Origin: Leptolyngbyaceae cyanobacterium | Lineage (GTDB): Bacteria; Cyanobacteriota; Cyanobacteriia; Cyanobacteriales; Aerosakkonemataceae | Direction: 5' to 3' | DNA: 64,000 nt | Assembly (NCBI GenBank): GCA_036703985.1 | Contig: DATNQN010000022.1 | Span: 124,001-188,000, forward strand | Shown: positions 5,565 to 29,482 of the stretch, one piece after another | Numbering within the stretch: the stretch's first letter is position 1 | Layout: the number at the start of each line of letters is the position of its first letter | Notes under the pieces: generated by a model | The model's database searches: none | What the model was told of the DNA's origin: nothing | The model's input: the letters and a program-made list of their open reading frames with translations, nothing else | Translations under genes and position numbers: made by a program

Positions 5565-6314
5565 ATGACACAGTTCTTGTTTGTAACAGATTTAGATAAT
5601 ACTTTAGTAGGTGACGATCGAGCTTTGGAAAAACTCAATAACCTATTAAGCCAACATCGCCAAGAACACGGAACGAAAATAGTTTACGCGACAGGACGTT
5701 CTCCTCAACTCTACCAACAACTTGTCGCGGAAAAAAATCTTTTATCACCGGATGCTTTAATTGCCGCAGTGGGTACGGAAATTTACTATCAGGATAGCAG
5801 TAATCCAGACCCCACTTGGTCTGGTCAACTTTCGGTAGGCTGGAACCGGGAAGAAGCAGAATCTATCGGCGCTAACTTTAGCGACCTCGTACCTCAACCA
5901 TCATCAGAACAGCGCCCTTTTAAAGTTAGCTATTTTTTAGCAGAAACAGCAGCCCCAGAAGTGATACCTCGTTTGGAATCATTATTACAAGAACGCGGTA
6001 TCGATGCTCGGTTAATTTATAGCGGTGGTAAAGATTTAGATATTTTGCCTCGTAATGGTAATAAAGGTTTGGCAGTACAATTTCTGCGCCAACATTGGGA
6101 AATAGACCCCCAACAAACAGTGGTATGCGGTGATTCTGGTAATGATATTGCTTTATTTAATGTAGGAGAACCAAAAGGTATTATTGTAGGAAATGCTCAA
6201 CCAGAACTCCGTAATTGGTATGAAGCAAATTTAGCTGATTATCGGTATTTAGCACGGGCAAATTGTGCTGGAGGAATTTTGGAAGGCTTACATCATTTTG
6301 GCTTTCTAACATGA
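5565..6314 (+). CDS. spp: Sucrose-phosphate phosphatase
   Basis: This HAD-superfamily phosphatase removes phosphate from sucrose-6-phosphate, the last step of sucrose synthesis after sucrose-phosphate synthase. The nucleophile and acid/base aspartates D9 and D11 sit in VTDLDNTLVGD. YATGRSPQLYQQL matches motif II. A lysine is in GGKDLDILPRNGNKGLA, and CGDSGNDIALF (about 188-198) supplies the Mg2+ ligands. The Synechocystis SPP has the same order of motifs and about the same length (249 residues here). No sucrose-phosphate synthase is in the window. The stop codon overlaps the ruvA start as ATGA, so the two genes are translationally coupled. Confidence 0.92.
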   Translation: MTQFLFVTDLDNTLVGDDRALEKLNNLLSQHRQEHGTKIVYATGRSPQLYQQLVAEKNLLSPDALIAAVGTEIYYQDSSNPDPTWSGQLSVGWNREEAESIGANFSDLVPQPSSEQRPFKVSYFLAETAAPEVIPRLESLLQERGIDARLIYSGGKDLDILPRNGNKGLAVQFLRQHWEIDPQQTVVCGDSGNDIALFNVGEPKGIIVGNAQPELRNWYEANLADYRYLARANCAGGILEGLHHFGFLT

Positions 6315-6937
6315 TTAATTTTTTGAAAGGCACGGTAGTTGGTTTTCACAAAACTAGTAGCGATCGCATGACGCTGGTTTTTGAGGTTAACCAAATTGGC
6401 TACGAAATGCAAGTCCCACCCCGTTTAGCAGAACAGTTAAAACCACAGGCAGAAATCGTCCAAATCTTCACTCACTTACAAGTGCGAGAAGATCAAATGA
6501 GTTTGTACGGTTTTGCTTCAGCGGCAGAACGAGATTTGTTTCGGCAATTGGTCAGCGTAAATGGCATTGGAGCAGCTTTAGCGATCGCTCTTTTAGACAC
6601 CTTGGGACTGCCAGACTTAGTGCAAGCGATCGTCACCGGTAATATCCGCGCCTTAGCCAAAACTCGCGGTGTCGGCAACAAAACCGCCGAACGCATTGCC
6701 TTAGAATTGAAAACCAAGCTGGCAGAATGGCGGCACTCGGCTGGCGTCGCCACTGCTCGTTCCGTAGGCCCTTCGCCAGAAATCGTAGAAGACGTAGAAA
6801 TGACTCTCTTAGCTTTGGGATATACCAACAGCGAGGTGATGAAGGCATTAGAAGCCATTAGTCAGGATGGTTTAGTCGCGAAAAGTAAAGAAGCGGAAGA
6901 ATGGATCAGGGCTGCGATCGCTTGGTTGAGCCAGTAA
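6311..6937 (+). CDS. ruvA: Holliday junction branch migration protein RuvA
   Basis: RuvA binds four-way DNA junctions as a tetramer and loads the RuvB helicase. From the ATG at 6311 the protein is 208 residues, the family norm. An OB-fold begins MINFLKGTVVGF, two helix-hairpin-helix motifs are visible (LVSVNGIGAALAIALLDTLG and ALAKTRGVGNKTAERIALEL), and a C-terminal RuvB-binding helical domain ends EEWIRAAIAWLSQ. A longer in-frame start at 6263 lies inside spp and is rejected, because the family starts with the OB strand. Its ATG overlaps the spp stop by 4 bases. No ruvB or ruvC is in the window, as is common in cyanobacteria. Confidence 0.96.
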   Translation: MINFLKGTVVGFHKTSSDRMTLVFEVNQIGYEMQVPPRLAEQLKPQAEIVQIFTHLQVREDQMSLYGFASAAERDLFRQLVSVNGIGAALAIALLDTLGLPDLVQAIVTGNIRALAKTRGVGNKTAERIALELKTKLAEWRHSAGVATARSVGPSPEIVEDVEMTLLALGYTNSEVMKALEAISQDGLVAKSKEAEEWIRAAIAWLSQ

Positions 6938-7116: not shown

Positions 7117-8859
7117 ATGACAACTACCAAATCTAATAAAATAACTAGCCAAGTTGATTCTAGCGCAAAACTTAATAAGACTAATCAGGAAAGCACTAAA
7201 AAAGATAAAGCTAGTCTGGTTGAATTTAGCTTATTTGCTCCTTATAACAAAGCAGCATCCTTAATTGGGTCTTTTTCCGATTGGCAAGAAATCCCAATGG
7301 AAAAAGGTAAAGATGGTTATTTCCGCACCAATGTAGAACTAGAAGACGGAGTTCATCAATATAAATTTCGCATTCAATCAAAAAGCTGGTTCTTTGAACC
7401 AGATCAATGGGTAGATGTCATCGATCCTTATGCAACCGACGTTGATGAAAGCCAAGGAGTTGGCAACATCAGAATCAAAGACGGTAAAAGAATCGTCGAT
7501 ACATATGTTTGGAAACACGATGACAAACCGCTCCCGCAAGATCGTGAATTAGTTATTTATGAAATGCACATCGCTGACTTTTCTGGCGGTGAAGATGACC
7601 CCAATCCACGAGGCAAATACAAACACGCGATCGAAAAATTAGATTACCTTTGCGAACTGGGAATTAATGCCATCGAATTAATGCCAGTTAAAGAATATCC
7701 AGGCGATTACAGTTGGGGTTACAATCCCCGCTATTTTTTTGCCACAGAAACCAGCTATGGCACGACAGAAGAATTAAAACAATTCATTGACGAGTGCCAT
7801 GCACGGGGTATTCGCGTCATCATGGACGGGATTTACAACCACTCGGAAGCATCTGGTCCCCTTACTCAAATCGATCACGATTATTGGTATCACCACTCTC
7901 CCCGCGATCCTGATAATAGCTGGGGGCCAGAATTTAACTACGAACATTATGACGAAAATCTAGACATTAAACCCGCCTGGAAATTCATCGGAGATACAGT
8001 CCGTTTTTGGATTGAAGAATATCACATTGATGGTATTCGCTATGATGCGGCACGGCAAATGGCCAATTACGACTTCATGCACTGGATCGTTCAAGAAACT
8101 AAAAAAACAGCTTCCATGAAGCCTTTTTATAATATTGCTGAATATATCCCCGATACACCATCTATTACTAACATTGACGGCCCAATGGATGGTTGCTGGC
8201 ATGATAGTTTTTATCACTGCGTCGTACCACACATTTGCGGTGATATGTTCGATCTAGAGCGCCTCAAAGAAGTAATTGATTGCAAGCGCCGAGGTTATAT
8301 GGGCGCTACAAATGTCGTCAATTACATCACAAATCACGATCACAATCGCGTCATGGTGGAGTTGGGAGAGCGCAATATTTTTGATGAAGAAGCTTTTAAG
8401 CGCATCAAACTGGGAGCCGTCATATTAATGACAGCTATTGGCGTCCCCTTAATGTGGATGGGACAAGAGTTTGGCGAATACAAACCAAAAAGTACCGACC
8501 CTTCCAAAATTGATTGGACGCTACTACAAAACGACCTAAATCGCGGTTTGTTTGAATACTACAAAGGATTAATTAACCTGCGGAAAAACAACCACGCTCT
8601 TTACACCGAGAACATTGACTTTTTCCATGAAAATCCAGAATGCAAAGTATTTGCTTACACGCGCTGGAATGATGAAGGCTCTCGTGTCGTAGTAGTAGCA
8701 AATTTCTCCGATAGCTATTTAGCCGGCTACACCGTTCCTAATTTTCCAGCCGATGGTAACTGGCATGAGTGGACATATAACTATGATGTGGAAGCTAAGG
8801 ACGGCCAAATAATGATTGACTTAGCTGAGTACGAAGCAAAAGTGTTTGTTTGGCAGTAA
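7117..8859 (+). CDS. GH13 alpha-amylase family enzyme with CBM48 domain (copy 1)
   Basis: A 580-residue glucan-active enzyme. A hydrophilic tail (1-33) precedes a CBM48 glycogen-binding domain (about 35-115; VEFSLFAPYNKAASLIGSFS, DPYATDVDE) and a GH13 TIM barrel. The catalytic set is complete: DGIYNH (region I, 237-242), nucleophile D310 in DGIRYD, acid/base E342 in YNIAEYIPD, and the transition-state pair in NHD (406-408). A C-terminal beta domain follows. The WGYN and CHARGIRVIMDGIYNH stretches resemble branching enzymes and malto-oligosyltrehalose trehalohydrolases, so the exact reaction is open. A close paralogue lies at 13006. It is convergent with the cyanophycin synthetase gene across a palindromic repeat. 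Confidence 0.85.
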   Translation: MTTTKSNKITSQVDSSAKLNKTNQESTKKDKASLVEFSLFAPYNKAASLIGSFSDWQEIPMEKGKDGYFRTNVELEDGVHQYKFRIQSKSWFFEPDQWVDVIDPYATDVDESQGVGNIRIKDGKRIVDTYVWKHDDKPLPQDRELVIYEMHIADFSGGEDDPNPRGKYKHAIEKLDYLCELGINAIELMPVKEYPGDYSWGYNPRYFFATETSYGTTEELKQFIDECHARGIRVIMDGIYNHSEASGPLTQIDHDYWYHHSPRDPDNSWGPEFNYEHYDENLDIKPAWKFIGDTVRFWIEEYHIDGIRYDAARQMANYDFMHWIVQETKKTASMKPFYNIAEYIPDTPSITNIDGPMDGCWHDSFYHCVVPHICGDMFDLERLKEVIDCKRRGYMGATNVVNYITNHDHNRVMVELGERNIFDEEAFKRIKLGAVILMTAIGVPLMWMGQEFGEYKPKSTDPSKIDWTLLQNDLNRGLFEYYKGLINLRKNNHALYTENIDFFHENPECKVFAYTRWNDEGSRVVVVANFSDSYLAGYTVPNFPADGNWHEWTYNYDVEAKDGQIMIDLAEYEAKVFVWQ

Positions 8860-8881
8860 CTAACTAGCTCGACAAAACTTG

Positions 8882-8948
8882 AGAAACCGGGTTTCTTAAC
8901 TAAAAATCTACTCTTTCAGATTTAGTTACTGCCAGAAACCCGGTTTCT
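8882..8948. repeat. Palindromic GAAACC/GGTTTC repeat pair, likely bidirectional terminator
   Basis: AGAAACCGGGTTTCT (8882-8896) and AGAAACCCGGTTTCT (8934-8948) are each near-palindromes and complementary to each other. Between them, TAACTAAAAATCT pairs with AGATTTAGTTA, giving a long composite hairpin. It lies between the convergent GH13 and cyanophycin synthetase genes. Related copies occur at 39551-39610 and 41406-41438. Confidence 0.75.
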
Positions 8949-8970
8949 AATTCCGGTGCGAAATCTTAGT

Positions 8971-10884
8971 TTACAAAATCTTCGTAATTTCCTTGAGATA
9001 AACCCGCTTAAAAGGTTCTTCCGCTCCCAGGCTATACTGTTCTATTAAACCTTTTCCTCGAATCGAAACATTGTTTTGTTCCTTCACAACAACGATCGAG
9101 TCTTCATCAATATCTCGCACCAGCATCATTTCAGTCTCTGTTGGATTATCCAGCACTACTACATTGCTACCTTGGTAAAACATTCCGTCTCTTTCCAAAA
9201 TCTCTTCTGGGTACTCGGCTAGGAGCAAATCTAGTTTAGGATTGCGTAGCAAATTTTGCACGTTCGTGTTGTAATCCTTGTGGAGAATTTTTTCCGAGCG
9301 GTTGATAAAAACTGCATCTCGGCAAACTGCGCCAATTACCCAGTCGGGATGATGGAGAAGAACATGATCGATCGTTTCTTGCAATTCTTGAACTGAAACC
9401 CGATTGAAGGTAATTAAAGGTATTCTGGCATCCAAACCAGACTTAAAAAAGGTTTCTAAAATGTAAGATGGTACATCAACGCTTTCCCCAATAGCTGGGT
9501 TTAAGTGCATGAAAATTCCTGGTGCGGCATTGATTTCTAAAATAGCGAAATTACCAGATTTCCAAGACTTAGAAATATCTTGAGTAATGACATCAATACC
9601 CAAGCAAGTCAAACTAAAATGCTGCGCGATATCTTGTGCCAGGATAATATTATCAGGGTGAAGTATGCGAGTTGCATCTATGCTTAAACCACCAGATGAT
9701 AGATTAGCTACTTTTCGCAAATAAACTATCCTATCTTTAGCTAGTATGCTATCTAACGATAGTTTTTGTTCGGATAAATACATCTCCATCGCTTCATCCA
9801 ACTGAATTTTACTCATCGGTGAAGTGGGTGTATCCAAACGTTCCGGCTTGCGATTCTCTCGCTTAATTAATTCGGCAATAGTTGAATAACCATCCCCAAC
9901 TACAGAAGCCGGACGACGTTCCGTAGCAGCTACGAATCTGCCATTAACGCATAGCAGTCGAAAATCTGCCCCTTTGATACTTTTTTCGACAATTACTTCG
10001 ATTGCTTGTTCTTCAGGAATTGCTCTGAGCGCTCTACCAAAAGCAAATTCTAATTCTTCTTGGTTTTGCACGTCTGCTGTCACCCCAATTCCTTTGTGTC
10101 CGACTACAGGTTTAACTGCTACTGGGTAACCAATTCTTTCTGCTACGATCTTTGCTTCTCCCAAAGAGAAAACAATATCACCTTTCGGAACTGGAAAACC
10201 AAATGTATTTAAAAAAATCTTACAGTCATCTTTACGGGTAGTAAAATCCGAATCTAAATGACTATCGTTATTAAAAGTGGTTGCTACCCCACGAATTAAT
10301 TTTTTTCCATAGCCGTATTGCATGAGTCTTTCATCCCACAAATAAAAGGTGGGAATTCCTTTTTGGCAAGCAGTACGTAACAAAGCGTAGACTGTCGGCC
10401 CACCATAAACAGATTGCCGAAAGACATCCTGAAGCTTTTTGATCTGATTTTCTAACGAAAAGTCTTCATCATGCTGAGTAATCGCTTCAAACCAATCCCA
10501 AACACAATAAATTACCCCTCGGCTGGTACGGGCATGAAGTGATTCAACCCCAATCCTAAAATAGTCAGGATATTGTTTATAACTCCACCGTTCGAGGTGT
10601 AAACCCATGTCGAGTTTTCCTACTTCTGAGACTGTTCGAGCAAACAGATGAGCATGGGATTGGTAATTTTCATTGCGTATTTGTGGGTAACGTTCTCCAA
10701 TAATTAAGGCATATTCCTCAATAGGTAAAGTTGGTAAATGCCCGGTGAAACCAAAATCAAACACTACCGCCCCACTATCTAAGTAGGGGTTTGGGCCAAT
10801 GTAATACTTCAAGTTGAAAATATCGAAAGCATCTGTTTTTCTGGCATTAATGCGTACTGTTTCGATTAGTTGGTCTTGAATCAT
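8971..10884 (-). CDS. cphA2: CphA2-type cyanophycin synthetase
   Basis: A 637-residue homologue of cyanophycin synthetase, which builds multi-L-arginyl-poly-L-aspartate, the nitrogen reserve. A CphA-type N domain (about 1-160) precedes an ATP-grasp domain (about 222-482) with AVKPVVGHKGIGVTA, VEKSIKGADFRLLCVNG, RKVANLSSGG and the metal-binding EINAAPGIFMH. CphA1 is about 870-900 residues and ends in an active Mur ligase domain. Here that domain is only about 150 residues (488-637), and the position of its GTNGKTTT P-loop reads FNRVSVQEL. This is the CphA2 architecture, reported to join beta-Asp-Arg dipeptides rather than free amino acids. Divergent from the 68-residue ORF and cyanophycinase. 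Confidence 0.85.
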   Translation of the reverse strand: MIQDQLIETVRINARKTDAFDIFNLKYYIGPNPYLDSGAVVFDFGFTGHLPTLPIEEYALIIGERYPQIRNENYQSHAHLFARTVSEVGKLDMGLHLERWSYKQYPDYFRIGVESLHARTSRGVIYCVWDWFEAITQHDEDFSLENQIKKLQDVFRQSVYGGPTVYALLRTACQKGIPTFYLWDERLMQYGYGKKLIRGVATTFNNDSHLDSDFTTRKDDCKIFLNTFGFPVPKGDIVFSLGEAKIVAERIGYPVAVKPVVGHKGIGVTADVQNQEELEFAFGRALRAIPEEQAIEVIVEKSIKGADFRLLCVNGRFVAATERRPASVVGDGYSTIAELIKRENRKPERLDTPTSPMSKIQLDEAMEMYLSEQKLSLDSILAKDRIVYLRKVANLSSGGLSIDATRILHPDNIILAQDIAQHFSLTCLGIDVITQDISKSWKSGNFAILEINAAPGIFMHLNPAIGESVDVPSYILETFFKSGLDARIPLITFNRVSVQELQETIDHVLLHHPDWVIGAVCRDAVFINRSEKILHKDYNTNVQNLLRNPKLDLLLAEYPEEILERDGMFYQGSNVVVLDNPTETEMMLVRDIDEDSIVVVKEQNNVSIRGKGLIEQYSLGAEEPFKRVYLKEITKIL

Positions 10885-11258
10885 TGATTACCTCCGTTTG
10901 CCTAAACAATTAATTGATTTATTCTGTTGAGAGATACTGACCATCCCTATCAAGTTAAATTTGTCATTAGCCATTAGTAATAAATTAGTTAAAAATGGCC
11001 AAAAAATTTGTTTGTAGCCATGCAGAGTTAAATTTAGCGCCATCTCAGATTCCTTTCCTCTATCAAAGGTTATCATTATATTTTTATTTGAGAAAATATT
11101 TATATTTAACTCGAATTGTATATATTTCTTCATCTTTAACATAAGCTTTGAGTATTAAATAATCAACTGTATTTAATTAAATTTTAAAATCTCACCTTTG
11201 ACAGGTACGAAGTAAACTTAAACTGTTTGATAATGGGATAAGAAGGGAGGATACGCAC
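10885..11258. other. Divergent intergenic region, cphA2 / 68-residue gene
   Basis: About 370 AT-rich bases. Near the rightward gene there is TTGACA at 11198-11203 and GATAAT at 11229-11234, too far apart (25 bases) to be one canonical promoter, but GATAAT is a plausible -10. GTCATTAGCCATTAGTAATA around 10973 looks like a decayed STRR heptamer tract. A minus-strand 84-codon reading frame here has no coding look. No perfect NtcA site was seen. Confidence 0.5.
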
Positions 11259-11465
11259 ATGAATACTACCAAAACCAACCTTAGAAATGAAGTAAGAGAG
11301 CTAGCTGAAGAAGCTTTCCAAAGAAAGCTTATTTCTGGTTATGGTGATGGTTCAAATAGAAATGAATTCCAGATCGTTTGCAATGGTAAGCCAAAGCATT
11401 TTCTGCTCGAAGAAGCTCGGCATTTGTTGATGGCTTTAATAAATGGTCAGGCTAAAAACTGCTAA
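11259..11465 (+). CDS. 68-residue conserved-looking small protein in cyanophycin locus
   Basis: Not recognised. The 68-residue product is soluble, charged and predicted mainly helical, with no signal or membrane segment. It opens MNTTKTNLRNEVRELAEEAF and its C-terminal half reads KPKHFLLEEARHLLMALING, like a small alpha/beta or helix-turn-helix module. A strong ribosome-binding site, AGGGAGGA, sits 7 bases before the ATG, and an intrinsic terminator (11511-11534) follows, so it looks like a real short transcription unit. It lies between cphA2 (divergent) and cyanophycinase (same strand), which suggests a link to cyanophycin or nitrogen control. That link is inference only. Confidence 0.65.
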   Translation: MNTTKTNLRNEVRELAEEAFQRKLISGYGDGSNRNEFQIVCNGKPKHFLLEEARHLLMALINGQAKNC

Positions 11466-11510
11466 TTAAAACATTTTTCCGATCTTAATTCCCATAGATT
11501 TTTTTTATAA

Positions 11511-11534
11511 CCCCTAATAATAGGGGCATTTTTG
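11511..11534 (+). terminator. Terminator of the 68-residue gene
   Basis: CCCCTA (11511-11516) and TAGGGG (11521-11526) form a 6 bp stem with a four-base loop, followed by CATTTTTG. It separates the small gene from the cyanophycinase promoter. Confidence 0.6.
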
Positions 11535-11606
11535 ATTTGGCCTATAAATCTTACGCAATTTTAGAAATTGTCTAACTGTATTGTTTTATTGAATTTCTAG
11601 CTTTTA

Positions 11607-11620
11607 GTATCAAAATCTAC
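11607..11620 (+). promoter_or_regulatory. NtcA-type binding site upstream of cphB
   Basis: The sequence GTA-TCAAAATC-TAC is an exact match to the NtcA consensus GTA-N8-TAC. It is 73 bases before the cyanophycinase ATG. About 24 bases after it TTTTAT (11645-11650) could serve as the -10 hexamer, near the spacing of NtcA-activated (class II) promoters. NtcA is the cyanobacterial global nitrogen regulator. Site identity is seen directly; regulation is inferred. Confidence 0.65.
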
Positions 11621-11693
11621 CAATTGGATGTGTTAATTAAATGATTTTATGTGTTTTATTTAAATTATTGATTAAATAACATCTGGAGTGGAT

Positions 11694-12521
11694 ATGTCTT
11701 CAAGTCAAGCCAGTGGTCAACTACTCATTATTGGTGGTGCGGAGGATAGAGAAGGTGATTGTAAAATTCTGCGAGAGTTTATTCGCGCTGCTGGAGGTGT
11801 TAAGGCCAGAGTTGCCGTTATGACTGCTGCAACAAGTCTACCTAGAGAAGTAGGAGATGATTATACTAGAATATTTGAGCGGTTAGGGGCTGAAGATGTT
11901 AAAGTAATCGACACGCAATATCGAGAAGATGCTAGCAGAAGTGAGTATTTAGAAATAATTCAAAATGCTACAGGTGTATTCTTTACAGGGGGAGATCAAG
12001 CCCGCATTATCAGCTTAATTAAAGACAGTGAACTAGATCAAGCTATTCATAAACGTTATGCAGAAGGAATCGTTGTGGGAGGCACGAGTGCTGGTGCTGC
12101 TATGATGCCTGATGTGATGATTGTTGAAGGGGAATCTGAAACCAATCCTCGCGTTGATACAGTAGCTTTAGGCCCTGGTATGGCTTTTTTACCGGGAATT
12201 GTAGTAGACCAGCATTTTTCGCAACGGGGAAGGTTGGGAAGGTTGGTTTCAGCCTTAACGCAGCAGCCAGCAGTTTTGGGAATTGGTATTGATGAAAATA
12301 CCTCTGTACTAGTGCAGAATAACCAGTTCACCGTGATTGGTGCTGGTGCTGTTACTGTGGTTGATGTGGCAGAAATAACTCATGAAAATTTGGACGGACT
12401 TTTAAAGGATGAAGCTTTAGCGATTTGCGGCGCGAAGCTACATATTTTGCCAGAAGGATATCGCTTTAATTTGGAAACTCGAAAGCCGATATTCAGTCAT
12501 CTTACTACTCAAGCTGCATAA
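11694..12521 (+). CDS. cphB: Cyanophycinase
   Basis: A serine peptidase of family S51 that degrades cyanophycin to beta-Asp-Arg dipeptides in the cytoplasm. It shows LLIIGGAEDREGD, VFFTGGDQARI and the nucleophile serine in GGTSAGAAMM, then DQHFSQRGRLGRL and GIGIDENTS, all typical of CphB. Length is about 275 residues, as expected. The ATG at 11694 is preferred over the in-frame GTG at 11688, because GGAG (11685-11688) overlaps that GTG and is correctly spaced from the ATG. An NtcA-type site lies 73 bases upstream and a strong terminator follows. It is the degradative partner of the adjacent cphA2. Confidence 0.95.
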   Translation: MSSSQASGQLLIIGGAEDREGDCKILREFIRAAGGVKARVAVMTAATSLPREVGDDYTRIFERLGAEDVKVIDTQYREDASRSEYLEIIQNATGVFFTGGDQARIISLIKDSELDQAIHKRYAEGIVVGGTSAGAAMMPDVMIVEGESETNPRVDTVALGPGMAFLPGIVVDQHFSQRGRLGRLVSALTQQPAVLGIGIDENTSVLVQNNQFTVIGAGAVTVVDVAEITHENLDGLLKDEALAICGAKLHILPEGYRFNLETRKPIFSHLTTQAA

Positions 12522-12544
12522 GTAATTAGTTGATAAGAGTATAA

Positions 12545-12591
12545 GGGTAAGATATGTAATTGCGATTGGCAATATCTTACCCCTTTTTTTT
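12545..12591 (+). terminator. Intrinsic terminator of cphB
   Basis: GGGTAAGATAT (12545-12555) pairs perfectly with ATATCTTACCC (12572-12582). A run of eight T follows at 12584-12591. Confidence 0.88.
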
Positions 12592-12633
12592 GAAAAATTT
12601 ATTAGAAATTTTAAACATTATTTAATTATTTAG

Positions 12634-12732
12634 TTAGCTAGTAATTGTAGCAAAGTAATAGGCTAAAGAAATTAATCCAATACCAATTCCACCACTTGAA
12701 ATCAGGGGAATCCATTCCCATAGTGTAGGCAT
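12634..12732 (-). CDS. 32-residue single-span membrane peptide
   Basis: A short reading frame encodes MPTLWEWIPLISSGGIGIGL, then about 12 more residues (ISLAYYFATITS), 32 in all. It has an amphipathic aromatic N-terminus and one transmembrane stretch with small-residue GxGxG spacing. The ribosome-binding site is excellent: AGGAG at 12739-12743 on the minus strand, six bases before the ATG. The size and shape recall photosynthetic or respiratory small subunits, but I could not match it to Psb, Psa, Pet or Ndh small subunits that I know. It is convergent with cphB and divergent from the second GH13 gene. Coding status is inferred from the ribosome-binding site and hydrophobic pattern. Confidence 0.5.
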   Translation of the reverse strand: MPTLWEWIPLISSGGIGIGLISLAYYFATITS

Positions 12733-13005
12733 CTTTTTCTCCTAAGATTTTCCTTTTCTTATATTTTGTTCATTCATATTTGTAACAGCCTCTCTCTTCA
12801 GCAACATTTCAATTTCTTAAAAGCATCTTCCTTAAGTTATAAATACAATCCGGAAAACTTGAATGTTAATTATAGTTACTGAGTTTTGAGGATTGTAAAA
12901 TTAATTAAAGTTTAATTTGTCTCTATTTCTTAAGGTTGATGATTCAAGAATTTAAAAGATAGAAAATTTGCCTAATTTGTTTTATTAATCAGGAAAACAA
13001 GCTTC

Positions 13006-14679
13006 ATGGCGTCTGCGATCGAATTTCAATTATTTGCTCCCAATAACAAAGAATCAGCCTTGATTGGCTCTTTTTCCAATTGGAAAGAAATTCCAATGGA
13101 GAAAGATAAAAATGGTTATTTCTATACCGTAGTAAATCTAGATGATGGTGTTTATCAATATAAATTTCGAGTCCGATCGCAAAGCCCATCTTTTCAAAAT
13201 GACCAATGGGTAGAAGTAATAGATCCCTATGCAGCGGACGTGGATGAACATAAAAAAAATGCTGTTATAAGAATTAAAGATGGCAAGCGACTTATTGATG
13301 ATTATATTTGGCAACATGATGACAAATTGTTACCAGATAATCATCAATTAGTTATTTACGAGATGCACGTAGCTGATTTTTCGAGCGGAGAAATAGATCG
13401 AGATAAAAAAGGTAGGTATTTAGATGCGATCGCAAAATTAGATCACCTAAGTGAATTAGGGATTAATGCGATCGAGTTAATGCCAATTAACGAGTATCCT
13501 GGCGATTATAGCTGGGGTTATAAAGTGCGTCATTTCTTTGCTACTGAATCCAGTTATGGTTCTACTGAAGATTTAAAACGTTTTATTGATGAATGTCATG
13601 CTAGAAATATTCGAGTTATTCTTGATGGAATTTACAACCATACGGACGAAGAATGCCCCTTGTTGATGATAGATCGTAATTACTGGTATTACGAGCATCT
13701 GCACTACCCGGAAGACCCCGGCAATTATTGGGGGCCTGAATTTAATTACAACAACTATGATGAAAAATTAGATATTAAACCAGCTTGGAAATTTATCGGT
13801 GATGTAGTGCGATTTTGGGTGCAAGAATACCATATTGATGGAATTCGTTTTGATGCAGTACGTCAATTAAATAATTACGAATTTTTAGAATGGATTGGCA
13901 AGGAAGCGAAAAAAGCTGCCGCACCTAAACCTTTTTACAATATTGCCGAACACATTCCCGATACGAGTAAGGTAGTGAGTCCTGAAGGGCCACTTGATGC
14001 CTGTTGGCACGAAAGTTTTCGATATTATATAGTTCCCCATATTTGTGGAGAAAAATTTGAATTAGAAAAACTCAAAGAGGTTCTAGACCCAAAGCAACAG
14101 GGATATGCTGTTAGTACTAACGTAATTAATTATTTGGCTACCCACGATCGCGAACATACGATGAGAGAATTAGGCGATCGCGGTATTTTCGGTGAAGATG
14201 CTTTTCGACGAACTAAATTAGGTGCTGTTTTGTTACTGACCGCAATGGGTGTACCCATGCTGTGGATGGGAGAAGAATTTGGCGAACACAAGCGAAAAAG
14301 CGAAACAGTAACTCAGCCGAAGAAAATAGCATGGCCTTTATTGGAAAGGCCGGAAAATCGCAGTTTATTCGAGTATTACAAACGGTTGATAACTCTCCGT
14401 AAACAAAATTTGGCTCTTCAACACGATCGCATAGAATTTTTTCATGAAGATCCCGACAACAAAGTGCTAGCCTACGTTCGTTGGGACGATCGCGGTAACC
14501 GCGTTGTAGTAGCAATCAACTTCTCAGATCGATATTTGCCAAATTACCGAATTCCTCATTTCCCTGCGCCTGGAAAATGGCTAGATTGGATGAGTGACGG
14601 TCACTTAGAAGCTGGAGATGATAATTTGGCGATCGACTTACCGGAATATGAAGCCAAAGTTTTAGTTCATCAGTACTAA
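13006..14679 (+). CDS. GH13 alpha-amylase family enzyme with CBM48 domain (copy 2)
   Basis: A 557-residue paralogue of the enzyme at 7117, collinear with it along its length but lacking the 33-residue hydrophilic tail. CBM48 spans about 4-85. The barrel keeps DGIYNH (208-213), nucleophile D283 in DGIRFD and acid/base E315 in YNIAEHIPD. The region IV triplet reads THD (379-381) where copy 1 has NHD. The IELMPxxEYPGDYSWGY block is shared with copy 1. It acts on alpha-glucan, with the exact reaction unresolved (branching, hydrolysis or trehalohydrolase-like). ATG 13006 starts right at the CBM48 domain. Downstream lies rpsO, 76 bases away with its own -10-like TATTAT. Confidence 0.85.
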   Translation: MASAIEFQLFAPNNKESALIGSFSNWKEIPMEKDKNGYFYTVVNLDDGVYQYKFRVRSQSPSFQNDQWVEVIDPYAADVDEHKKNAVIRIKDGKRLIDDYIWQHDDKLLPDNHQLVIYEMHVADFSSGEIDRDKKGRYLDAIAKLDHLSELGINAIELMPINEYPGDYSWGYKVRHFFATESSYGSTEDLKRFIDECHARNIRVILDGIYNHTDEECPLLMIDRNYWYYEHLHYPEDPGNYWGPEFNYNNYDEKLDIKPAWKFIGDVVRFWVQEYHIDGIRFDAVRQLNNYEFLEWIGKEAKKAAAPKPFYNIAEHIPDTSKVVSPEGPLDACWHESFRYYIVPHICGEKFELEKLKEVLDPKQQGYAVSTNVINYLATHDREHTMRELGDRGIFGEDAFRRTKLGAVLLLTAMGVPMLWMGEEFGEHKRKSETVTQPKKIAWPLLERPENRSLFEYYKRLITLRKQNLALQHDRIEFFHEDPDNKVLAYVRWDDRGNRVVVAINFSDRYLPNYRIPHFPAPGKWLDWMSDGHLEAGDDNLAIDLPEYEAKVLVHQY

Positions 14680-14755: not shown

Positions 14756-15025
14756 ATGGCCCTCACGCAAGAGCGTAAACAACAACTCATTACTGAATAC
14801 CAAGTTCACGAAACTGACACGGGATCGGCAGATGTGCAAATCGCTATTTTAACCGAGCGCATCAACCGTCTCAGCGACCATTTGAAAAATAACAAGAGCG
14901 ATCACGCTTCTCGACGGGGATTGTTAAAGCTGATCGGTCAACGCAAGCGTCTGCTGTCCTACATTAATAAAGAAAATAAAGAGCGCTATCAAGCATTAAT
15001 CGGTCGCCTGGGCATTCGTGGTTAA
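14756..15025 (+). CDS. rpsO: 30S ribosomal protein S15
   Basis: An 89-residue primary 16S rRNA-binding protein of the small subunit central domain. The family signature is complete: [38 protein letters not shown] and [10 protein letters not shown]. Length equals the bacterial norm. It is followed after 5 bases by the pam68-like gene, so the two are cotranscribed. Confidence 0.98.
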
Positions 15026-15030
15026 ATTTT

Positions 15031-15528
15031 ATGCCATCAGAACCTCAACCCACTACCAAAGCAGACAATACGAAAAAAGACTCTTCCCCAGGTAAAGAGC
15101 GATTACCGTTTGAACCGAAGAAAAATCGCCATAAAACGGCTAAAAATGCTCCAGGAAATCCGGTGGCGGTTAAAAAACAAAACAAATTGCCATCGGCTTC
15201 ACAAGCAGACACCGCAATCCCAGAAGCCGTTAGTCGGCGTATGCTAAGGCGAATGGCTATTTTTTCCGGTGTACCCTCTTCTTTGGGTATTGCTACTTTT
15301 ATTGTCAGCTACATCGTAATTAGCCATGCCTGGTTTAAACTGCCCAATTCAGCAGTAGTACTGGTAAGTATGGGCTTTTTTGGTCTGGGTGTCTTGGGGT
15401 TGAGCTATGGTGTTCTTTCTGCATCTTGGGATGAAGAAAAACTAGGCAGTATTTGGGGCTGGGAGCAGTTTACCGTTAATTGGGGACGAATGACCGCAGC
15501 ATGGCGATCGAGCAAGGAAAAAAACTAA
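15031..15528 (+). CDS. PAM68-family photosystem II assembly protein (DUF3464)
   Basis: A 165-residue membrane protein with a basic, Lys/Pro-rich N-terminal tail (1-65), then RRMLRRMAIFSGVPSSLGIA leading into two membrane helices (about 78-100 and 110-132), and a C-terminal SASWDEEKLGSIWGWEQF. This is the PAM68 (DUF3464) pattern. The Arabidopsis and Synechocystis homologues help early photosystem II assembly and chlorophyll insertion into CP47 at the thylakoid membrane. It lies 5 bases downstream of rpsO in one operon. Family assignment is good; the function is transferred from characterised relatives. Confidence 0.85.
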   Translation: MPSEPQPTTKADNTKKDSSPGKERLPFEPKKNRHKTAKNAPGNPVAVKKQNKLPSASQADTAIPEAVSRRMLRRMAIFSGVPSSLGIATFIVSYIVISHAWFKLPNSAVVLVSMGFFGLGVLGLSYGVLSASWDEEKLGSIWGWEQFTVNWGRMTAAWRSSKEKN

Positions 15529-24730: not shown

Positions 24731-27700
24731 TTACTGAGTAACTACCAACTCTTTAGTTGCTTCTGGATTAGCTTCTGGAGAATCTGCCTCTGAGGGCGGT
24801 ACAAGCTGCCAGAACTTCGGCAAGTACGCTGCCCAATTCTCCAAAATTGTCTTAGCTTTTTGGCTACCAGTACGCGCAGCATGAGAACCGATCAAATCCT
24901 TCAACTGTTGTTCTCCAGCAGGAGTTACCACCCGTTGAACTTTAACGATTTCCGGATTTACTTTTTCTTTGAAGCTATCATCTTCATCCAAGAAATAAGC
25001 TAACCCACCAGTCATCCCAGCGCCTACATTTCGACCTACTTTACCTAAGACGACGATTACTCCACCGGTCATGTATTCGCAACAGTGGTCGCCGGCACCT
25101 TCAATCACTGCTTTAGCAGCAGAATTTCGCACCGCAAACCGTTCTCCTGCTTGACCTAGTGCAAATAGAGTACCGCCAGTTGCTCCATAAAGGCAAGTGT
25201 TACCCACAATTACGTTTTGAGATGGGTCATAGGTAGCACCTGCTGGAGGTTTAATGGCAATTTCTCCACCGTGCATCCCTTTACCTACGTAATCGTTAGC
25301 ATCTCCTTCCAAATTCAAGGTCATTCCCGGTAGGTTGAATGCACCAAAGCTTTGGCCTACGCTACCGACTAAATTGAGCGTAATTTGGCCTTCAAAGCCG
25401 TTATTACCATATTGAGCAGCGATCGCACCCGCGAGTCTTGACCCGATCGTGCGATCGGTATTGACAACTCGAATGGTCTTGCTGACTTCTTTTTGTTCTC
25501 GAATTGCGGCTTGAATGTCTGGATCGTTCAATAATTGGTCATCCAATACTGGCCCATTGCTATGCACTTCTTCGTGAATTAACCAAGCACGATTTTCTCG
25601 CGTATCCGGTAAGTGCAGAATGCAGTCTAAATTCAGCGATTCTGTTTTAGTTAATTTGACTTCCGGACGCATTTTCAAGAGGTCTGCCCGACCGACAACT
25701 TCATCCAAAGATCGATAGCCGAGATGGGCGAGAATGCTACGTACTTCTTCAGCTATGAAATAGAAGAAGTTGACAACGTGCGCTGGGATACCAGTAAACC
25801 GCTTCCGCAGTTGTTCTTGCTGGGTTGCTACACCGACGGGACAGTTATTCGTGTGGCAGATGCGAGCCATGATACAGCCTTCAGCAATCATCGCGATCGA
25901 ACCGAAGCCGAATTCTTCAGCGCCCATCAAGGCACCCATTACCACGTCCCAACCGGTTTTCAAACCGCCATCTACTCGCAGCAAAACGCGATCGCGCAAA
26001 CCATTTTCCATCAACACCCGATGTACTTCTGTCAATCCCAATTCCCACGGGGAACCTGCGTGCTTGATCGAACTCAATGGCGAAGCGCCTGTACCGCCAT
26101 CGTGACCGGAAACTTGGATGATATCTGCATTTGCCTTAGCAACACCAGCCGCAATCGTACCGATCCCGACTTCCGCTACCAGCTTTACGGATACGGCTGC
26201 TTTGGGATTGATTTGGTGCAAGTCAAAAATTAACTGTGCCAAATCTTCGATCGAATAAATATCGTGGTGGGGTGGCGGAGAAATTAAAGTTACACCAGGT
26301 TTCGATCGCCGTAACATAGCAATATAAGGGCTTACCTTTTTACCGGGCAACTGTCCGCCTTCGCCCGGTTTTGCGCCTTGGGCAATCTTAATTTCCAATT
26401 GCTGGGCACTCATCAAGTATTCGGGAGTTACCCCAAAGCGACCGGAAGCAACTTGTTTAATGGCGCTAGAAGCAGTATCGCCATTTCGCAACCCATTTAA
26501 ATGAGGAAACAAGGTAGATTTGCCTTCCTCATTCACGTCATCTAAGATTTTGTAGCGTTTAGGGTCTTCTCCACCTTCACCGGAGTTAGATTTACCTCCA
26601 ATGCGGTTCATGGCAATTGCCAGCACTTCATGGGCTTCTGGAGACAAAGCACCGAGGGACATTCCTCCCGTACAGAAGCGCTTGACAATATTTTCTACTG
26701 ATTCTACTTCTGAAATAGGGATGGAAGTGCGATCGCTCGTAAATTCTAGTAAATCCCGCAAAGCCGTAATCGGACGTTCTTGTAGTAGTTTCCGGTAAAG
26801 TTCGTAATAGTCATTGGTTATTTGTTCTTTGTCATTAGTATTTCCTGATGACGAATGACCGTTAGCAAATGACGAAACAGCTTTATGTAAAGCTTTTGCC
26901 ATTTCCGGGCTATTCATGTGGTATTCTCCACCCGGACGATATTGCACGAAGCCAAGGTTTTCCAACTTCTTAATCGTGATGGCTGGGAAGGCTTTTTGGT
27001 GGAATGACATCACTTCCGTCGCTAATTCTTTGACAGTTAAACCACCAATGCGTGAAGGAGTACCTTTAAAACCTAAGTTGAGTAAATCTTCGCCAATCCC
27101 AATTGCCTCGAAAATTTGCGCCCCTTGATAGCTGGAAAGCAGAGAAATGCCCATTTTCGAGAGGATTTTTAATAGGCCGTCTTCGATCGCTTTTCGATAA
27201 TTGCTTAAAGCTTTATCCAGAGTACAAGCCGTAATCTTCCCTCTTTCCATTAAACTTTGGGTTTTCGGATCGTGCCACCAAGCACGTACCGTTTCCCAAG
27301 ACAAATAAGGATTGACAGAGGAAGCACCGTAACCGATTAAACAAGCGAAGTGGTGAGTACTCCAACATTGGGCTGTATCCACGATCAGAGAAGCTTTCAT
27401 CCGCAAACCTTCCGCAATCAGGTAGTGATGAACTGCTCCGACAGCTAACAAAGGTGGAATATAAGTATAATTTTCACCGATTCCTTCACCTGCCCTGTCG
27501 CTCAATATTAAAATCTTTTTGCCATTACGAACTGCTTCGGCTGCTTTTTGGCAAAGACTGCGAACGGCAACGGATAATCCTTCTGGCCCACTATTCACTT
27601 CCACCAAAGTAGATAAATCAGCCGTAGCAAATTCCGAGTTCCGAATCGCCTCTAAGTCTGCATCTCCGAGTACGGGAGAATCTATTTTCAGCAAACGGGC

Positions 27701-29482
27701 ATATTCCGGCTTCACTTCCAACAAATTGCCCCGTTCTCCCAATTTCATCGTCAAGGACATCACCAGCTTTTCCCGCAACGGGTCAATTGCTGGATTAGTT
27801 ACTTGGGCAAAACGTTGTTTGAAATAGTCATATAATAAATGGGATTTTTCTGACAACACTGCTAAAGGTATGTCATCTCCCATACAAAATGTCGGTTCTT
27901 TGCCAGTGGATGCCATCTCGTGGACGATCATTTCCACATCTTCTATGGTGTAACCAAAGGCGGTTTGCAAACGCAGCAACGTTTGGCTATCCAGGGGCGA
28001 TTTTTCACTGAAAGGTTGTGGTTTGAGGGTTTGTCTCGATTTCAACCATTCACCATAAGGGTAAGCTGAAGCAGCCCGTTGTTTGATTTGCCAGTTTTTG
28101 AGAACTTCGTGGCTTTGCAAGTCAACCGCAATCATTTGCCCCGGGCCAAGGCGTCCTTTTTCCAAAATATCTTCTTCGGGAACATCGACCACGCCAGCTT
28201 CAGAGGCGACGATAATTAAACCGTTGCGGGTGATGGTATAACGGGCGGGGCGCAAGCCGTTGCGATCGAGTGTAGCACCAACTTTTTTCCCGTCGCTGAA
28301 TACCAACAGGGCAGGGCCATCCCAAGGTTCTTGAATGCCTGAGTAATATTCGTAAAAATCAATAATTTCCGGATAATTAGCTAATGCTGGCTGATTTTGA
28401 TAAGCTTCTGGCACCATCATCATCAAGGCTTCTGATGGAGTGCGCCCTGACATCACCAGCAATTCTAATACGTTGTCTAAATTGGCCGAATCGCTATTTT
28501 TCGCATCTACCGATGGTTTGAGATCGTTAATCCCTTCTCCCCAAACTGGATGAGAAATTTCGGCTTGACGTGCCATCATCCAGTTAATGTTACCTAACAG
28601 AGTGTTGATTTCTCCGTTGTGTCCCAACAAACGCATCGGTTGGGCTAATGGCCATTTGGGTAAAGTGTTGGTGCTGAAGCGGCGGTGATAAACGGCAAAA
28701 GCACTCTCATAGTGAGGATTTTTCAGGTCTAAATAGAATTCTGCCAGGATTGCCGATCGCACCATTCCTTTATATACGATCGTGCTATTAGAAAACGAGC
28801 AAATGTAAAAATCATCCGACCATCTTAAAGGCGATTCCGTTTCCAGCGTTCTACCGATACGGCGACGCACTCTATATAGATGTCGGTTTAATTCATCGCC
28901 ACGCAAATTTTCCGAAGATACGAACAATTGGGAGATGTACGGTTGATTTTCTCTAGCTTGAATCCCCAATACTTCCGGTTTTACAGGTACTTCCCGCCAT
29001 CCTAAAAGAGCGAGATTTTCCTCAAGCAACACTTTTTCTACAATTTGACGCCCTACTGCTGCTCGTGCTGGCTCTTTAGGTAAAAATACCATGCCTACTC
29101 CGATTTTTTCGCGATCGGGCATTGGCTTACCATTATCTGCAAACCATTGATTAACCATTCCCCAAGGAATGGCAGTCATCACGCCAGCGCCATCTCCGGA
29201 GTCTCTATCTGCGCTACAACCGCCGCGATGTTCCAAACAAGCCAAAGCAGATAATGCTTTACTAACGATATCGTGGCTAGCTTGGTTATCTTGATTCGCG
29301 ATAAAGCCTACACCACAAGCATCTCTTTCTTCCACCAGCCATTTTTGACCGGGGTAAGGAAAGCCATGATGCTTATTTTCCTCTACTCCTGCATTTTGGC
29401 TAGAGGTAGATTGGCTGCTCGCAAGATGCACTTTTGTGTTAATCGTGGAATCATTCATACTGTTCGTGCCTAATTTAGTCAT
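24731..29482 (-). CDS. glsF: Ferredoxin-dependent glutamate synthase
   Basis: Fd-GOGAT transfers the glutamine amide to 2-oxoglutarate with electrons from ferredoxin, giving two glutamates. The 1583-residue chain carries an N-terminal glutaminase domain whose nucleophile is C56 in RDACGVGF (the first 55 residues are probably trimmed), a central domain, an FMN barrel with [22 protein letters not shown] and [13 protein letters not shown], the 3Fe-4S cysteines in [19 protein letters not shown], and a C-terminal beta helix. No small NAD(P)H subunit gene is adjacent, which fits the ferredoxin type. Residues about 870-891 appear to be a repeat-derived insert. Upstream, GTA-N8-TAG on the minus strand is one base from an NtcA site. 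Confidence 0.96.
26808..26872 (-). repeat. STRR-like heptamer tract inside Fd-GOGAT
   Basis: The plus-strand text AGTCATTGGTTATTTGTTCT then TTGTCATTAG matches, with a few changes, the heptamer repeats TCATTGG/TCATTTG seen at 59441-59469, and is followed by GATGACGAATGACC. In the protein it encodes [19 protein letters not shown], a low-complexity stretch not expected between the ALHKAV and YELYRKLL segments. The frame is kept. Confidence 0.6.

Follow-up and report, generated by a model that had tools for sequence, protein, structure and literature searches.

A 64,000-nucleotide stretch of contig DATNQN010000022.1 from a Leptolyngbyaceae cyanobacterium (the window, taken from a cyanobacterial genome of 7.68 Mb in 151 contigs) holds a small gene for a 68-amino-acid protein that is divergent from cphA2, the putative gene for cyanophycin synthetase 2, and follows it with few exceptions among relatives. 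With moderate confidence, we interpret the product of this gene as a third, dedicated component of a second cyanophycin locus, an accessory protein or regulator of CphA2, and the two GH13 genes that bracket the locus as ancient neighbours. Linkage, co-occurrence, purifying selection, a promoter-like sequence, and a predicted fold are directly established for the small gene, which, rather than the GH13 bracket, is the most interesting part of the block. The block comprises six genes and is bounded in the window by ruvA (6263–6937) and rpsO (14756–15025). All six reading frames reported by the first-pass annotation were re-found in place, and cphA2, whose strand had been omitted there, runs opposite to its neighbouring genes. 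The features of the cyanophycin part are as follows.

8971–10884, minus strand: putative cphA2, cyanophycin synthetase 2, 637 amino acids, assigned from structure matches and from failing to score as CphA1.
11189–11210, plus strand: 22-bp conserved element upstream of the small gene, found by position weight matrix, strict pattern, and position in relatives.
11194–11206, plus strand: 13-bp near-palindrome ACCTTTGACAGGT inside the 22-bp element.
11229–11234, plus strand: putative −10 box GATAAT, 22 bp past the palindrome, identified by conserved spacing.
11259–11465, plus strand: 68-amino-acid companion gene of cphA2, encoding a predicted α-β-β-β-α protein; based on conservation, substitution rates, and a fold model.
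11511–11526, plus strand: weak terminator-like hairpin 3' of the small gene.
11688–12521, plus strand: cphB, cyanophycinase, 277 amino acids, with a GTG start (an ATG at 11694 is possible); based on TIGR02069 and the GTSAG motif.

The association of the small gene with cphA2 was examined in several sets of loci and genomes. Of 227 loci confirmed by similarity, the best 80 make up the named set, which is biased to close relatives, whereas the 292 genomes from the phylum and the 388 from the order were drawn evenly; some strains occur in both the named and the sampled loci. The small gene is present in 74 of the 80 named cphA2 loci. In the order-wide set, CphA2 was found in 133 genomes, the small gene in 111 (strong matches, five weak distant ones having been excluded beforehand), and both in 110; at most 15 candidates per genome were scored for the small gene and three for CphA2, and absences may be misses. 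Both genes share a contig in 108 of the 110 genomes, with a median gap of 337 bp, and 106 of these 108 pairs are divergent neighbours separated by 130–1488 bp. Across the phylum, the small gene occurs in 25 genomes, every one of which belongs to the 33 with CphA2 (compared by hand, with the CphA2 cut placed by eye in a gap between E values of about 1e-199 and 1e-76). A similar comparison was made for cphB, counted as at least 200 aligned residues, in loci whose sequence extends 6 kb or more on the cphB side. Five of 65 named loci and five of 28 sampled ones had the small gene beside cphA2 and no visible cphB on that side, and cphB without the small gene was found in 1 of 65 and 2 of 28. Among the ten loci without visible cphB, L072 shows the edge of a cphB about 7.4 kb off; L060 has a cphB remnant of 21 residues. 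Because the small gene is kept beside cphA2 where no cphB is seen, it is, as judged from gene order, cphA2 and not cphB that it tracks. The median ratio of nonsynonymous to synonymous substitution rates (dN/dS) is 0.23 over 950 non-independent sequence pairs, and the gene is, by this measure, under purifying selection. A spurious origin of the small reading frames in the block was rejected: the 68-residue gene is conserved with purifying selection, and the 32-residue gene described below has homologues.

A counterpart may exist in Anabaena PCC 7120, in which alr0573 is presumably cphA2. By numbering only, asl0572 lies between all0571 and alr0573 in the second cyanophycin locus of this strain, a position that fits the 68-residue gene. 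It is listed as a 75-residue hypothetical protein and a Clade B signature protein (PMC2823733). Beyond this table entry, nothing on the small gene was found among the listed hits of open-licence literature searches, which is weak evidence of absence.

CphB degrades cyanophycin to β-Asp-Arg dipeptides and CphA2 rejoins such dipeptides into polymer; the cphA2/cphB2 gene pair is already known. By Pfam and NCBIfam, the synthetase in the window is a cyanophycin-synthetase-like ATP-grasp protein. It matches chain 8fxh over residues 1–635 of 637 (E 2.4e-288) and also 7ta5, entries titled RimK-domain protein and glutathione synthase that we take to be CphA2. Its score against the CphA1 equivalog model, 340 bits, does not reach the cut-off of 850, and compared with the CphA1 of its own genome (an open frame of 899 residues), it is shorter and misses the C-terminal part. 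Among the best 80 of 227 loci, its closest named CphA2 is that of Argonema antarcticum (81% identity). The cyanophycinase scored 330.4 bits against TIGR02069 (cut-off 126.6) and carries GTSAG, presumably the nucleophile serine motif, at residue 132. The window synthetase lacks the CphA1 N-domain motif Cx19HxxEH (PMC9262961), which the host's own CphA1 carries. Because of the 8fxh and 7ta5 matches, the failed CphA1 cut-off, and the absence of this motif, we assign the protein from its sequence as CphA2, for which β-Asp-Arg dipeptides are described as the polymerised substrate (PMC9262961). The CphA1 gene lies on another contig together with its own cyanophycinase, and the locus in the window is therefore assigned as the second, CphA2/CphB2-type cyanophycin locus, a type found in filamentous and related cyanobacteria. 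Pfam and NCBIfam agree with the first-pass annotation on the CphA2-type synthetase, the cyanophycinase, and the GH13/CBM48 enzymes.

A 2016 paper by Klemke is said, from its title, to deal with CphA2 of nitrogen-fixing cyanobacteria. The window protein is like that enzyme in its full-length match, its short form, and the lack of the CphA1 primer motif, but it differs in sitting in an apparent non-fixer. The best nifH match in the host genome reached 219.5 bits, below the curated cut-off of 394.35, and nifH above this cut-off was missing from 8 of 13 other, hand-chosen genomes, so the CphA2 locus is not tied to fixing nitrogen. A decayed cphA2 tail was also seen in L187 (genome G203) at 15079–15234, about 8 kb from the GH13a gene; no intact CphA2 match was found in that genome.

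Seventy distinct sequences of the 68-residue protein share 17 invariant positions, which focus on LISGxG, E-x-Q, and GKPxH and include L24, I25, S26, G27, G29, E36, Q38, G43, K44, P45, and H47. AlphaFold2 predicted a helix, three strands, and a helix for the window protein, with a mean predicted local distance difference test score (pLDDT) of 86.0, and the same fold for a Nostoc homologue, with a pLDDT of 93.4 and a predicted template modelling score of 0.81. No known family could be attached to the protein. The window sequence had no Pfam or NCBIfam match at E ≤ 0.01; the best Pfam match over the 70 members had an E value of 0.0083, in five members only, and the best PHROGs match 0.052. A search of the PDB with the family profile gave nothing under E 0.5, and Foldseek with the two models gave best E values of 0.66 and 0.44, with no clear relative. 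In structural comparison, the best match was T7 Gp1.2 (Z 5.3, root-mean-square deviation (rmsd) 3.1, 64 residues aligned), where a Z below 8 may reflect a common arrangement. Weaker ones were the C-terminal domain of LINE-1 ORF1p (Z 4.4, rmsd 2.8, 61 aligned) and the double-stranded-RNA-binding domain 9jvc (Z 2.7, rmsd 4.7, 56 aligned). The isoelectric points of the family have a median of 6.6 and span 4.9–10.0 (8.7 for the window protein), and the family therefore has no consistent positive charge.

Upstream of the small gene, a 22-bp element with the consensus ATATAACCTTTGAAAGGTGCAA scored at least 16 in 66 of 70 intergenic regions, starting 70–100 bp from the gene in 64 of these 66; the others are L109 (188 bp) and L079 (1,032 bp). 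The window copy has a position weight matrix score of 22.4 and is the sole match of at least 12 across the 64 kb, in agreement with the strict pattern. When whole loci (up to about 18 kb) were scanned, 70 of the 74 gene-bearing named loci contained the element, compared with 0 of 6 lacking the gene and 0 of 80 shuffled loci; the first count is partly circular, since most of these loci also served to train the model. Of the 70 loci, 69 have a single copy, and the remaining one has an additional match. L042 and the loci without the gene lay outside the training set. Among extra loci, the element lies upstream of the small gene in L042, L176, L177, and L184 (L176 repeats L072); it is missing above threshold in L182 and L183 despite the presence of the gene, and in all 11 extra loci without it. 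In L042, the small gene and cphB are 7.7 kb from cphA2 and the element travels with the small gene, so in this locus it has not been retained at the cphA2 promoter.

Inside the element lies the palindrome ACCTTTGAAAGGT. A TATAAT-like box (at most one mismatch) follows it by 21–22 bp in 41 of 58 palindrome-matching regions, compared with a shuffled mean of 2.0; the shuffles used for the element, −10 box, and NtcA-site scans preserve base counts only. Because this spacing is fixed, the centre of the palindrome would fall about 41 bp ahead of the inferred transcription start, and a near-palindrome centred near −41 occupies the place of a class II activator. The small gene thus appears to have its own conserved promoter, which looks activator-dependent. 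NtcA-activated class II promoters have their activator site near −41 (PMC3898017) and are alike in having a palindrome there and a −10 box at a set spacing, but the palindrome of the small gene is ACCTTTGAAAGGT and not GTAN8TAC. NtcA control of the cphA2/small-gene region was rejected, as GTAN8TAC occurs in 9 of 69 regions against a shuffled mean of 7.9 and is absent from that of the window (the scan left out one intergenic region longer than 900 bp). The fuller TGTAN8TACA was found in four of the 69 (L075, L085, L130, and L140; not the window) against 0.82 in shuffled sequence. A tentative NrrA-like pattern matched 0 of the 69 and is uninformative. In the 7.7-Mb host genome, the strict element pattern has three matches and a reversed control pattern four; since the matches do not exceed the control, no wider regulon is visible. 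The region between the two genes contains further conserved sequence. GGGTGTTTAG is present in 44 of 69 cphA2/small-gene intergenic regions, about 17 bp ahead of the cphA2 start where inspected, and a block with the core CTATC lies midway in the region in relatives. A second conserved block, M1, precedes the small gene by about 160–230 bp in most of the aligned rows displayed and is weak in the window (score 3.6).

These observations can be placed in a working mechanism. CphB would release β-Asp-Arg from cyanophycin, and CphA2 would return the dipeptides to the polymer. The 68-residue protein would most likely bind CphA2, or the polymer at CphA2, and would thereby tune re-polymerisation, presumably as a control part whose own switchable promoter decides when re-polymerisation is allowed. 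Several observations weigh against a dedicated CphA2 partner. Strong small-gene matches are absent from 23 of the 133 CphA2 genomes, so CphA2 seems able to work alone, and G528 has the small gene and GH13 remnants without CphA2. Two genomes depart from divergent adjacency: G062, with the genes 7.7 kb apart, and G541, with the genes 3.9 Mb apart. The aligned stretch crosses a stop codon in four strong matches (G294, G371, G510, and G585). Extra copies away from cphA2 occur in G346 and G358, and distant relatives in five genomes (E 1e-5 to 1e-7); because of these second copies and distant relatives, the wider small-protein family may have other roles. Finally, regulators and their targets are also usually arranged as divergent pairs, and this layout suits a gene-regulatory role equally well. 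One distant relative, on the minus strand of L192 (7995–8318), lies beside a lysyl-tRNA-synthetase-like gene (named by eye).

The outer part of the block consists of three genes.

7117–8859, plus strand: GH13a, GH13/CBM48 putative α-glucan enzyme, 580 amino acids; based on Pfam, the catalytic triad, and its tree clade, an orthologous line on the cphA2 side.
12634–12732, minus strand: gene for a 32-amino-acid hydrophobic peptide that travels with the GH13 genes; based on AGGAGA and homologues in relatives.
13006–14679, plus strand: GH13b, GH13/CBM48 enzyme, 557 amino acids; based on Pfam and a separate clade, an orthologous line on the cphB side.

The paralogy of the two GH13 proteins noted in the first-pass annotation holds, with 63% identity over 555 residues. 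GH13a matches Alpha-amylase (1.6e-28) and CBM_48 (5.1e-10) in Pfam, and GH13b is likewise a GH13/CBM48 protein. Residues D310, E342, and D408 (GH13a numbering) are conserved in 64 of 64 aligned homologues from both lines, and from the family and these intact catalytic residues, we infer that the enzymes act on α-glucans. Their best NCBIfam matches are malto-oligosyltrehalose trehalohydrolase (TreZ) and GlgB, and the catalytic residues align with those of a solved TreZ. Unlike TreZ and GlgB, however, both proteins score below the cut-offs (217 and 204 bits against 538.8 for TreZ, 188 and 181 against 577 for GlgB), and GH13a and GH13b apparently form a separate group. A midpoint-rooted tree of the 64 homologues split into clades of 46 and 18 (support 0.94 and 1.0). 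The larger contains 41 cphA2-side proteins, four from stretches without cphA2, and one from the cphB side, with L041 (cphB side) and one L161 protein among its members; the smaller contains 17 cphB-side proteins and one without cphA2. The tree excludes proteins with stops, fewer than 450 aligned residues, or less than 50% identity, and omits L072, L073, L076, L078, L079, L084, L091, and L094 as presumed duplicates (L079 is not clearly a duplicate, but it is without a GH13 match). Because the cphA2-side and cphB-side genes form separate clades, the GH13 bracket is probably of long standing rather than the product of a recent tandem duplication.

The proposed synteny comparison was positive: of 60 named loci, 29 carry a GH13 gene no more than 6 kb away on the cphA2 side, and 13 of 65 carry one on the cphB side. 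Among loci in which both flanks span 6 kb or more, the complete set of five main genes is seen in 10 of 53 named and, including the window, 3 of 26 sampled loci. A chance block is rejected because synteny is kept across relatives, and the arrangement is, on this comparison, old, conserved, and beyond chance. The linkage of the GH13 genes to cphA2 may be passive. We regard the chances as evenly divided on whether the GH13 genes are bystanders that inherited an old ruvA–rpsO gene order and have no cyanophycin function. Among 24 sampled loci besides the window, GH13a and rpsO are near cphA2 equally often (8 each), and rpsO accompanies GH13a in 9 of the 10 sampled loci, counting the window, where GH13a lies on the cphA2 side. 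In G312 and G304, the GH13 pair lies by ruvA with cphA2 on a different contig, and GH13b has decayed in several Microcoleus-type loci. Against simple inheritance of gene order, GH13a stands by cphA2 without rpsO in 18 of 53 named loci (at least 6 kb on both sides), and it is present in 27 of 33 CphA2 genomes compared with 13 of 259 without CphA2 (hand count, ancestry uncorrected). Common descent inflates all of these GH13 counts. A functional coupling of the GH13 enzymes to cyanophycin is plausible as a hypothesis. GH13 remnants were seen beside cphB or the small gene in L117, L118, L129, L139, L148, and L191, mostly Microcoleus.

Of 40 genomes searched for the 32-residue gene, 8 (the host among them) gave matches at E ≤ 0.1, and its homologues are open frames of about 33 residues in several relatives. 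By eye, AGGAGA precedes its start and the product is hydrophobic, a putative membrane peptide; no Pfam or NCBIfam model matched it. In the window, and likewise in G295, it separates cphB from GH13b, whereas in G312 and G304 (loci L161 and L163) it lies between two GH13 genes with no cph gene in between. Because it is found between GH13 genes free of cph genes, it seems, from gene order, to belong with the GH13 genes and outside the cyanophycin unit. The locus accordingly looks like two modules, with cphA2, the 68-residue gene, and cphB nested inside GH13a, the 32-residue gene, and GH13b. The first-pass annotation had offered both small proteins as candidate regulators or granule proteins, a reading that suits the 68-residue protein, tied to cphA2, and seems not to hold for the 32-residue one.

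Other features of the window were recorded around the block. A gene for sucrose-phosphate phosphatase (TIGR01485 above cut-off) at 5565–6314 on the plus strand lies immediately upstream of ruvA and GH13a, an order shared by several relatives. The large subunit of glutamate synthase, an enzyme of nitrogen assimilation, is encoded at 24731–29482 on the minus strand, about 10 kb from the locus. The palindrome AGAAACC(G/C)GGTTTCT occurs twice at 8880–8950, where GH13a and cphA2 converge, and is perhaps a two-way terminator (by eye).

A rather doubtful but serious alternative for the small gene is that its product is no enzyme partner and instead binds DNA or RNA, controlling the intergenic region that cphA2 and the small gene share and, with it, its own promoter; this is nearly as simple as control of CphA2. 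The α-β-β-β-α topology recalls, to us, double-stranded-RNA-binding domains, and the matches to LINE-1 ORF1p and 9jvc point the same way, but their scores are too low to use. An element found once per locus and, in the host genome, no oftener than its control would fit a protein that targets its own promoter, as would the divergent arrangement of the two genes. However, Pfam and NCBIfam revealed no helix-turn-helix or known DNA-binding family, structural Z scores below 8 may reflect a common arrangement, the family lacks a consistent positive charge, and in L042 the element stays at the small gene, away from cphA2.

Compared with a dedicated CphA2 accessory protein, a more specific combination is somewhat more speculative still: the 68-residue protein would be a dedicated CphA2-regulating subunit in cyanophycin recycling, an activator would recognise ACCTTTGAAAGGT at essentially one promoter, that of the small gene, and, in loci that also have the GH13 pair, nitrogen-polymer re-synthesis would be coupled to glucan turnover.

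We consider it unlikely that the block is a coordinated carbon–nitrogen reserve module under one control, as the first-pass annotation had proposed. The five-gene layout is conserved, and NrrA reportedly, from the title of a paper, controls both cyanophycin synthesis and glycogen breakdown. Under heterotrophy, a Synechocystis cphB mutant accumulated glycogen aberrantly (PMC12661447); in Anabaena, cphB2 (all0571) reacts to calcium (PMC4915528) and to CO2 step-down (PMC7699953). None of these published carbon links concerns the GH13 genes themselves. In a survey of cyanophycin gene clusters covering CphA1, cyanophycinase, and dipeptidases, a text search for the words 'amylase', 'glycogen', and 'hypothetical' found none (PMC10206079). 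The listed hits of open-licence literature searches likewise gave nothing on GH13 genes beside cphA2, which is weak evidence of absence. Against a single control, the block uses both strands and its genes have upstream regions of their own; strands and gaps imply several transcription units, and the block genes do not make up one operon. Terminator-like sites number 11 in the scanned region against 6.0 expected, with the hairpin 3' of the small gene being weak. The conserved element is confined to the small gene in the loci scanned, apart from the single extra match, GTAN8TAC is near its shuffled level, and GH13a is near cphA2 no oftener than rpsO.

It is very improbable that the 68-residue protein is a structural granule protein that binds the polymer and not CphA2: it is small and, in the model, compact, and is encoded next to a synthetase and a cyanophycinase, but in the phylum sample its gene occurs only with CphA2 and not in genomes whose best match is CphA1-like.

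As a gene that follows CphA2 with few exceptions, the 68-residue gene would provide a genetic handle on why CphA2 is kept beside a full CphA1, and its conserved promoter could serve as bait for finding its regulator. The GH13 neighbours offer a testable, weaker link between the nitrogen and carbon reserves of these cyanobacteria.

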